Assembly: GCA_020073015.1 (NCBI GenBank)
Contig: JAIQFZ010000019.1
Location: forward strand, 1 to 48,636
Direction of reading: 5' to 3'
DNA length: 48,636 bases
Source of the DNA: Terriglobia bacterium
Lineage (GTDB): Bacteria; Acidobacteriota; Terriglobia; Terriglobales; Acidobacteriaceae
This document shows positions 16,946-19,108 of this stretch, piece by piece. A model generated the notes under the pieces. It did not search any database. It worked only from the letters and a program-made list of their open reading frames with translations, and was not told the origin of the DNA. The position numbers and the translations under genes were made by a program. Position 1 is the stretch's first letter; the number at the start of each line of letters is the position of its first letter.

Positions 16946-19108
16946 CTAATCGCCCGCCACCGGTTCGCCTATCTCTTCTGTCTTCGTGGCAGCGCCGTTG
17001 CCGTTGGAATGCCCATTCGCCGGAGCGATCGCCCCCAGCGGAATGAATCCAGCGTCGTTCGAAGTCGCCGGCTTCTCCTTCAGGATCTGTTCCCGATAGA
17101 GTTGTGCCATGCGCGCGTCGTAGGCGGCGTCGTTCTTTTCCGGCCCGCGCTGCGCGGCCAACTTCGCATCCCGCGCTCGGGTCTTCTCCTCGCGCGCCGT
17201 CTTCGCAATGCCCAACTTGTCGAGATCGTGCTGCACTTCGTTGGTGACGATCTCTTCGCGCAGATAGAGGGCATGCTCTTGGTCTTCGAGGTTGACCTTC
17301 TTGCCGCCCGCGAAGATCTCGTGCCGTCCATGCTCTTCGTACCACTTGGTAAGCGTGGCCGTCATGTGCATCTTCTCGATGATGTTTCGCCAGCCCACGC
17401 CCGTGTTGTAAGCGCAGAAGCTGATCTCGCCTTCCTGCGTCGCGTACGGAATAATGCACTGCTCCGTCCGCCGGAAGTCGTAGTTGAACAGGTCCTGGAA
17501 CCACATGCCCGCGATGAACAGGAAGTTCCACCGGTCCTGACGCCGTTTCATCACGTCATCAATCGTGCGGTCCGGACCCACCTTCCCATAATTCTTCCCC
17601 GTAGCATTGAAGTTCTTATCAAACTTCTTCAATAGGTCCATCATCTTGAAATGAGTAGGCGACTGAAACGGGTCGTAGTTCTTCATCAAACACAAAGCCA
17701 TCCCAAAAACCGTCCAGAACTTAGATCGAGCCGCATCGTTAACCTTAGCAATATCTTTTGCAAGCTGATCGCCCTTCAAGAAAGCAGTAACCGGCACCGC
17801 CTCCTTAGTCTCCTTATCAATCATCACAGCCATTCCCGTACCGCAGTTCGGATGACAACCACAGGAGAGTTGGCCCCAGTTGTTGTTTTTGTCTTCGGCG
17901 TGCATTAGATCGGCCCAATCGCTGAAGGTGGACATGAAGCTGATCGGGAACCAGTCGCGGGCGGGTTCGCCGAGGCCGGTCTGATTCTTGACGTCGTGCG
18001 CGAGGTGGGCGAGGGTGTAGCGCTGCGCTTTGCGGCGGTCGTCGGTGATGGCTTCGTCGCGGCCCGTGAAGCTCACGGGTTGGAAGCTGAGGAAACCAAT
18101 CTTCTTGGGGTTGTCGAGCGCGAACTGGACGATGCGTCCGACCTGCTCGTTGTTAATGCCGTTCACGATGGTGATGACGGGGACGATTTCGACTCCGGCG
18201 CGATGCAGGTTGTCGATGGCCTTCAGTTTCACGTCGAACAGGTTGCCCACGGCGCGGTGCGAGTTGGCGGCGTTTCCGATGCCGTCGAACTGCAGGTAGG
18301 CATAGCGCATGCCCGCTTCGGCGGCCTGCTGCGCGAACTCGAAGCTCTTGGCGAATTCGATTCCGTTGGTTGCGGCCTGCACGCTGTTGTAGCCGACTTT
18401 GCGGGCATAGCGAACCGCGTCGAGGAAGTACGGCGAAAGTGTGGGCTCGCCGCCGGAGAACTGCACCGACATCTGCCGCTTGGGCTTGACGGTAATGGCA
18501 TTGTCGAGCACGGTCTTGATTTCTTCCCAGGTGAGTTCGTGCACGAAGCCGACCTGGTTGGCGTCCATAAAGCACGGATCGCACATCATGTTGCAGCGAT
18601 TGGTGAGGTCCACGGTCAGGACGGCGCCGCGCCCGTACTTCACGGTCGAAGATCCATGGTGATGGAGATGTTCGTCGGCATGGGCTTGGATATCGCGGCC
18701 GGGGAACACTTCTTCGAGATGGCGCGAGAACTCGGTATCAATCGACATCAAGTCTTCGAAGTGGCCGTGCTTGGGACAGTCCTTCACCATCCAGAGCTTG
18801 CCGTCGCGCTCGATGATCTGCGCTTTGACCTCGCCCACTTTCTCGTTCATGAGGATGTCGACGGGCAGGTGGCCGTCGAGAATCTGCTGGCGGATTTCGG
18901 GCACGCACTTCGGACAGAGCGAGTCGGTCGAGCGCGGCCAGCCCAGTGGCGGCTTGGATTTTTCCCAAGTCTTCAGCAGCGGTTTTTCGGACCACTTCGG
19001 GGTCGGAGACGGATTGGGAGCAACGCGGTTCAGGCGTTCAAAGACGGCCCATGCGCCCGTGGCGGCGACGGTGACGGCCTTCTCGACGTACTTAATCGGC
19101 TTATGCAT
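16946..19108 (-). CDS. Radical SAM enzyme of the tetraether lipid synthase (Tes) / COG1964 type
   Basis: 720 residues from ATG 19108 (GAGAG upstream); an ATG at 19246 would add 46 residues lacking any domain. The N-terminal part holds a rubredoxin-like layout: SLCPKC (Cys65, Cys68), then ERDGKLWMVKDCPKHGHFED (Cys111). The radical SAM core has Cys172, Cys176 and Cys179 as CX3CX2C in TNRCNMMCDPC, and FSGGEP at about 217-222 for SAM binding. Extra cysteines follow: SCGCHPNC (416, 418, 422), 473, 551 and 565, enough for auxiliary clusters. This matches archaeal Tes, which couples lipid tails carbon to carbon to make membrane-spanning lipids and carries three 4Fe-4S clusters and a mononuclear iron. 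In Acidobacteriota homologues are proposed to form iso-diabolic acid and branched GDGTs. Family membership is strong; the exact product is inference. The Lys/Glu-rich C-terminus is probably a flexible tail. Confidence 0.82.
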   Translation of the reverse strand: MHKPIKYVEKAVTVAATGAWAVFERLNRVAPNPSPTPKWSEKPLLKTWEKSKPPLGWPRSTDSLCPKCVPEIRQQILDGHLPVDILMNEKVGEVKAQIIERDGKLWMVKDCPKHGHFEDLMSIDTEFSRHLEEVFPGRDIQAHADEHLHHHGSSTVKYGRGAVLTVDLTNRCNMMCDPCFMDANQVGFVHELTWEEIKTVLDNAITVKPKRQMSVQFSGGEPTLSPYFLDAVRYARKVGYNSVQAATNGIEFAKSFEFAQQAAEAGMRYAYLQFDGIGNAANSHRAVGNLFDVKLKAIDNLHRAGVEIVPVITIVNGINNEQVGRIVQFALDNPKKIGFLSFQPVSFTGRDEAITDDRRKAQRYTLAHLAHDVKNQTGLGEPARDWFPISFMSTFSDWADLMHAEDKNNNWGQLSCGCHPNCGTGMAVMIDKETKEAVPVTAFLKGDQLAKDIAKVNDAARSKFWTVFGMALCLMKNYDPFQSPTHFKMMDLLKKFDKNFNATGKNYGKVGPDRTIDDVMKRRQDRWNFLFIAGMWFQDLFNYDFRRTEQCIIPYATQEGEISFCAYNTGVGWRNIIEKMHMTATLTKWYEEHGRHEIFAGGKKVNLEDQEHALYLREEIVTNEVQHDLDKLGIAKTAREEKTRARDAKLAAQRGPEKNDAAYDARMAQLYREQILKEKPATSNDAGFIPLGAIAPANGHSNGNGAATKTEEIGEPVAGD

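Follow-up and report, generated by a model that had tools for sequence, protein, structure and literature searches.

The window considered here is a stretch of 48,636 nucleotides from a Terriglobia bacterium of the family Acidobacteriaceae (Acidobacteriota; GenBank assembly GCA_020073015.1, contig JAIQFZ010000019.1, positions 1 to 48,636), in which the minus-strand gene P0001 (16946..19108) codes for a radical S-adenosylmethionine (SAM) protein of 720 aa resembling archaeal tetraether lipid synthase (Tes). According to alignments and phylogeny, this gene belongs to a distinct and widespread bacterial branch, hereafter the long family, without one of the iron–sulfur clusters of archaeal Tes. 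Acidobacteria are known for iso-diabolic acid, made of two iso-C15 chains joined at their ends (last carbon), and this gene is the best candidate here for making it. On balance, we lean toward the product of the long gene being an iso-diabolic acid synthase that works by Tes chemistry. For the host itself, we infer that the gene may serve the synthesis of iso-diabolic acid or of branched glycerol dialkyl glycerol tetraethers (GDGTs), as a preliminary description of this DNA, made from the letters alone, had supposed.

A modelled Tes-like fold and the loss of one metal site

Searches of Pfam returned Radical_SAM (1.5e-18) and Zn_ribbon_HMPTM, the MJ0619-type zinc ribbon (1.1e-13), and the best NCBIfam match is Tes (NF045702, 3.3e-93). 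The profile search suggested in the preliminary description has hence borne out Tes as the closest model, at a score (312.9 bits) which lies under the curated cut-off of 450 bits. Among solved structures, the best match is the Tes of M. jannaschii, MJ0619 or GDGT-MAS (7tol, 2.7e-59), with 30% identity over 493 residues, and the modelled fold matches 7TOL/7TOM over 478 residues, helical cap included (residues 56-597 aligned). By residue comparison, with the cap lying within this fold match, hydrophobic positions of MJ0619 are still hydrophobic in 27/39 cases in the cap and in 54/62 cases in the radical SAM domain. The matches that come next in the host genome are weak (3.8e-7 and 6.2e-6), and no strict Tes (or "C-type", that is, a protein of the same phylum scoring >450 bits) exceeds the cut-off.

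The structure of MJ0619 has revealed four metal sites: a rubredoxin-like site with iron bound by C9, C12, C33 and H36; a surface cluster in the N-terminal part, [Fe4S4]N (C73, C77, C80, His); the radical SAM cluster; and, toward the C-terminus, the cluster [Fe4S4]C, with a labile Met439 near both lipid pockets, on which the lipid radical is held as a sulfur–carbon bond, the roles of the remaining metal sites being termed unclear (PMC9433317). We compared these sites in an alignment of MJ0619 with 136 homologues, all different in sequence but with close relatives included, comprising 114 long-family and 18 strict Tes rows. The motifs pointed out in the preliminary description are all present: the CPKC...CPKHGHFED N-terminus corresponds to C65-P-K-C68 and C111-P-K-H114-GHFED (rubredoxin-like site C65-X2-C68 ... 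C111-X2-H114, 18767..18916), the CX3CX2C motif to C172-X3-C176-X2-C179 (18572..18595) and the GGEP motif to residues 219-222 (18443..18454). The "at least six" further cysteines are exactly six (C416, C418, C422, C473, C551 and C565), which together with C65, C68, C111, C172, C176 and C179 make 12 in the protein; 11 of them are constant across the 114 long-family rows (gap or X in at most 3 rows each) and C473 varies.

Toward the C-terminus, C422 of the segment C416-G-C418-HPN-C422 (17843..17863) takes the position of MJ0619 C338, M535 (17504..17506) that of Met439, and C551...Y555...C565 (17414..17458) those of C455, Tyr459 and C470. By analogy, C422, C551, C565 and M535 are the probable ligands of [Fe4S4]C, the cysteines having been chosen for their invariance, and Y555 would be the active-site tyrosine. 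The SAM loop Q343-PVSFTG-R350 (18059..18082), whose role is known from MJ0619 (Q268-R275; PMC9433317), is likewise shared. Wherever a long row (n=114) covers a rubredoxin, radical SAM or C-terminal position, the residue is conserved, with few exceptions: H114 differs in one row and one X occurs at each of two radical SAM cysteines.

In contrast with MJ0619, the place of [Fe4S4]N (residues 147-157, 18638..18670) has lost its ligands, H147/H151/S154/K157 replacing C73/C77/C80/H83, so that, of the four metal sites seen in the single homologue with a solved structure, one is missing here. Among long rows with a letter at these positions, the four ligands are found in 0/113, 0/113, 0/112 and 0/112, whereas the strict Tes of the phylum, which have the same domains as the window protein, keep all four in 18/18 rows. 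A second set of 80 named loci, found with two long-family peptide patterns and hence not an unbiased draw (in 4/80 the core is identical to that of a row in the first set), gave the same picture, with the rubredoxin, radical SAM and C-terminal sites kept in 80/80 and the N-terminal cluster ligands in 0/80. The long family has constant cysteines at the C-terminal cluster: C416, extra with respect to MJ0619, occurs in 114/114 long rows versus 2/18 strict Tes, and C418 in 114/114 versus 15/18. Arg210, reported as one of four residues binding 5'-deoxyadenosine in MJ0619 (PMC9433317), is aligned with A286 in the window protein and is an arginine in only 4/114 long rows versus 18/18 strict Tes; an invariant arginine of the long rows, R285, stands one residue before and may do its job.

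Further differences concern the spacer inside the rubredoxin-like site (42 residues here versus 20 in MJ0619) and both ends of the protein. The predicted model has an amphipathic N-terminal helix (residues 4-29, 19022..19099; hydrophobic moment 0.49), outside the part aligned with 7tom (56-597), which could possibly touch the membrane, and a tail of ~120 residues (598-720, 16949..17317) beyond the MJ0619 match, in which residues 685-691 and 693-720 have a predicted local distance difference test (pLDDT) score <50. The layout of MJ0619, attributed to this protein in the preliminary description along with a call for structural superposition and a check of the cluster cysteines, therefore holds for the whole modelled fold, for most of the catalytic core and for the rubredoxin, radical SAM and C-terminal sites, but not for the N-terminal cluster: the protein appears Tes-like without being a plain copy of MJ0619. 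Since the [Fe4S4]N site is lost and the score stays below the curated cut-off, it is not, by sequence, a member of Tes proper.

A separate clade

In both trees that we built, the long family forms one side of a branch, and the unity of this clade is firm. In the first tree, built from 91 of the 137 rows, it has a Shimodaira–Hasegawa-like approximate likelihood ratio (SH-aLRT) support of 100, and in the second (46 rows) a support of 100/100, the branch leading to it measuring ~2 changes per column. The tree called for in the preliminary description hence sets the window protein, on sequence grounds, in a clade of its own, separate from the strict Tes carried by some genomes of the phylum. The latter (530-586 aa, 32-37% identical to the window protein) do not form one clade in either tree, and the ranges of identity to MJ0619 do not overlap (28-34% for the long family, 37-44% for strict Tes). 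Because two strict Tes rows (L129, L130) adjoin the long family, the loss of [Fe4S4]N looks derived, with the root and the placement of MJ0619 and of the outgroup unsure in both trees owing to long branches. The literature searched yielded no account of the lost N-terminal cluster, nor one that treats the long family as a clade apart or mentions its myxobacterial branch.

Distribution of the long family and of strict Tes

Among 61 near genomes, the host included and pieces at contig edges counted, 44 carry the long gene, and 6 of the 17 without it carry a strict Tes instead. In a set of 60 genomes of the order, the long gene is present in 46/46 of the window's family and 9/60 exceed the Tes cut-off. 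Over 395 genomes of the phylum, for which two candidates were scored per genome and the line between long and other proteins was drawn at a best E of 1e-190, the long gene occurs in 181, strict Tes over cut-off in 33, both in 14 and neither in 195; G293, whose long gene is split over contig edges, was counted by hand, and G442 (418.5 bits, cut by a contig edge) was left out of strict Tes. The two types occur independently (14 genomes with both versus 15.1 expected, p 0.72). A phylum-wide replacement of one type by the other was considered and dropped, since co-occurrence is at chance level.

In one other family of the same order (f2), strict Tes is found only in G037, G039, G040, G042, G047 and G049, never with the long gene, which is itself found only in G038, G041, G043 and G044, and four less complete genomes have neither. 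Taken by itself, this pattern resembles replacement, which the phylum-wide counts do not bear out. Within the window's own family, three genomes carry both types as close neighbors on one strand: almost side by side in G084 (L064:6821-8596 + 8845-11001), and within 6 kb in G068 (L065:8256-10412 + 13858-15489) and G064 (L063:5991-7979 + 13655-15478). As their three long rows cluster in the tree, these pairs probably go back to one event. Three genomes of another family (f87; G351, G356 and G416) have both types on different contigs.

The family extends beyond Acidobacteriota. A scan of named genomes gave at least 580 confirmed matches, and among the 80 listed, with ranks read from record titles, 51 are from Acidobacteriota and 24 from Myxococcota. 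The latter include three Sorangium cellulosum chromosomes (L180, L220, L223) and, among other Myxococcota loci, L202; the Sorangium protein, at 341 bits, is also under the Tes cut-off.

A proposed iso-diabolic acid synthase

Substrate and product are suggested by lipid surveys. Across 46 strains from 7 subdivisions of Acidobacteria, a survey reports iso-diabolic acid in subdivisions 1, 3, 4 and 6 (PMC13274423). It has also been reported as 26.4% of the fatty acids of E. aggregans (PMC11354219), and in Chloracidobacterium (PMC12816986) and Pyrinomonas (PMC4644332). Bacterial Tes homologues, acidobacterial ones included, were proposed in 2022 as the makers of branched GDGTs (PMC8941075, PMC10087280), a role called unconfirmed in 2025 (PMC11868695). 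E. aggregans is credited with a single Tes homologue, 32% identical to a methanogen Tes, Koribacter and Solibacter homologues being at 42% and 40% (PMC8941075). Set against the non-overlapping identity ranges of the two types, the sole homologue of E. aggregans looks like a long-type protein, judging by this published figure, which was obtained with a different query. In that case, iso-diabolic acid and branched GDGT are made by a strain that has the long type alone.

Modelled on the chemistry of MJ0619, the reaction would start at the CX3CX2C cluster with the generation of a 5'-deoxyadenosyl radical, which would abstract hydrogen at the terminal methyl of an iso-C15 (iso-branched) acyl chain belonging to a membrane phospholipid. 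The resulting carbon radical would be parked as a carbon–sulfur bond on the C-terminal [4Fe-4S] cluster (C422, C551, C565, M535), until a second SAM yields a second chain radical that attacks the first carbon, the joined tails becoming ester-bound iso-diabolic acid that spans the membrane. As the surface cluster [Fe4S4]N of archaeal Tes is absent, electrons would have to come by another route, perhaps via the rubredoxin-like iron.

Several observations weigh against this reading. To the score under the Tes cut-off, the lost metal site, the displaced Arg210 position and the independent occurrence of the two types must be added that 17/61 near genomes lack the long gene, among them G006 (98% complete), G059 (94%) and G024 (90%), which have no strict Tes match either, so that it is not indispensable. 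The matches listed include a metagenome-assembled genome (MAG) labelled Holophagales in addition to those of Myxococcota, and we know of no iso-diabolic acid from either group. Solibacter usitatus is described as having two Tes homologues and branched GDGTs, with iso-diabolic acid undetectable (PMC10087280). Finally, the only enzyme for which synthesis of a membrane-spanning acid has been demonstrated in bacteria, Mss, comes from Thermotoga maritima, a genome with no match to the Tes model at 1e-60 and with one at 0.001, as in all 14 controls.

It is conceivable, though in our opinion unlikely, that the long protein is a Tes-like radical SAM enzyme which acts on a lipid in a different way: it might link two chains within a single lipid, close a ring or modify some other lipid, for example a hopanoid. 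The long branch parting it from strict Tes, its own insert between C68 and C111, the extra C416, the added N-terminal helix and C-terminal tail and the shifted Arg210 position would suit such an enzyme, as would its presence in Myxococcota and the 14 genomes holding both types, whose jobs may differ. However, the residues that serve coupling at the radical SAM and C-terminal clusters are retained, and several coupled products are reported from MJ0619, seemingly at one site (PMC9433317).

Still less probable is that the iso-diabolic acid of Acidobacteria stems from strict Tes or from an Mss-type enzyme like that of Thermotoga, with the long protein accessory or unrelated. Mss, compared here by description only, likewise joins acyl tails into a membrane-spanning dicarboxylic acid; it has been confirmed by expression in E. 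coli, although the paper saying so did not itself recover membrane-spanning lipids on co-expression (PMC11604127), Mss matches are reported in 11/97 Acidobacteria MAGs of one study (PMC11868695), and the Koribacter and Solibacter homologues have the higher identities given above. In Thermotoga, however, the chains are joined at the next-to-last carbon (PMC8788747), unlike in iso-diabolic acid, and strict Tes is confined to the 33 genomes of the phylum counted above, the host not among them. A non-lipid enzyme, either TrsS-like, as the second NCBIfam match (NF045646, 206 bits under a cut-off of 490; its radical SAM core is homologous and most of the model is aligned) might suggest, or in line with the old pterin-methylase reading of MJ0619, is highly improbable, given that the Tes model scores 107 bits above TrsS, that the fold match spans nearly all of MJ0619, cap included, and that the authors of the structure were unable to corroborate the pterin role (PMC9433317).

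Gene start, neighborhood and other host genes

P0001 is one open frame of 720 codons from the ATG at 19108 to the stop at 16946, the plus-strand reading of the same interval being broken by stop codons. The mechanical open reading frame begins 46 codons further upstream, at a TTG; relatives, for instance L080 and L151, begin either at the shared words (MHKPxKYVEK) or no more than 1-2 residues away, which makes the ATG at 19108 the likely start codon. Promoter and terminator scans were at chance level.

The preliminary description rightly held that the gene stands alone: its flanks are a pro-kumamolisin-type protease and a TylF-type methyltransferase, the latter upstream on the same strand (19453-20262, minus). 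Further along the minus strand lie a GTG-started frame of 369 aa with a PD-(D/E)XK nuclease domain (PDDEXK_5; 20631-21740) and a frame of 234 aa with many RESPxK-like repeats and no Pfam match at 1e-5 (21913-22617). Open frames were compared all against all in 20 stretches plus the window and again in 100 stretches plus part of it (E 1e-10 or 1e-15 over half or 0.6 of the length, groups of at least 3 or 4 loci listed). Within these limits, and with TylF covered only by this general comparison, no neighbor common to the whole long family was found, and gene context therefore gives no function. Small groups share a phosphomannomutase (10 loci, 5 titled Pyrinomonadaceae), an FAD oxidoreductase (6 loci; ThiO-like, under cut-off), a QueG-like protein (5 loci) or a HEAT-repeat protein (4 myxobacterial loci). 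A search of plasmids yielded 6 distant matches, all from haloarchaea or Persicobacter.

On another contig of the host (G000:C45), a frame of 1049 aa with two BadF-type ATPase domains and DUF2229 (L239:4782-7931) overlaps a frame of 450 aa with no Pfam match at 1e-5 (L239:7868-9220). Its predicted domains follow the general build of the PlsA/Ger ester reductases making ether lipids, which is not proof of ether lipids. In G058, a strict Tes gene (L068:8044-9699, 593.8 bits) is directly followed by a radical SAM/SPASM gene (9815-11374), a pair possibly devoted to bacterial tetraether synthesis with a further cross-link or ring.

Significance

Soil and lake palaeothermometers rest on iso-diabolic acid and branched GDGTs, for which no tail-joining enzyme is proven in Acidobacteria. 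Once the acidobacterial "Tes homologues" are sorted into two groups, the widespread long family and the patchily distributed strict Tes, it becomes clear which gene to delete first, and metagenome surveys can count the two types apart. We propose tentatively that the long family is a separate tail-coupling lipid synthase, descended from Tes, deprived of [Fe4S4]N and endowed with an extra constant cysteine at the C-terminal cluster, which would be the main iso-diabolic acid synthase of Acidobacteriota and would also supply Sorangium and related myxobacteria with membrane-spanning lipids, of which we know no report there. The long family moreover provides a natural test of the purpose of the [Fe4S4]N cluster in Tes, left open by the structure paper.
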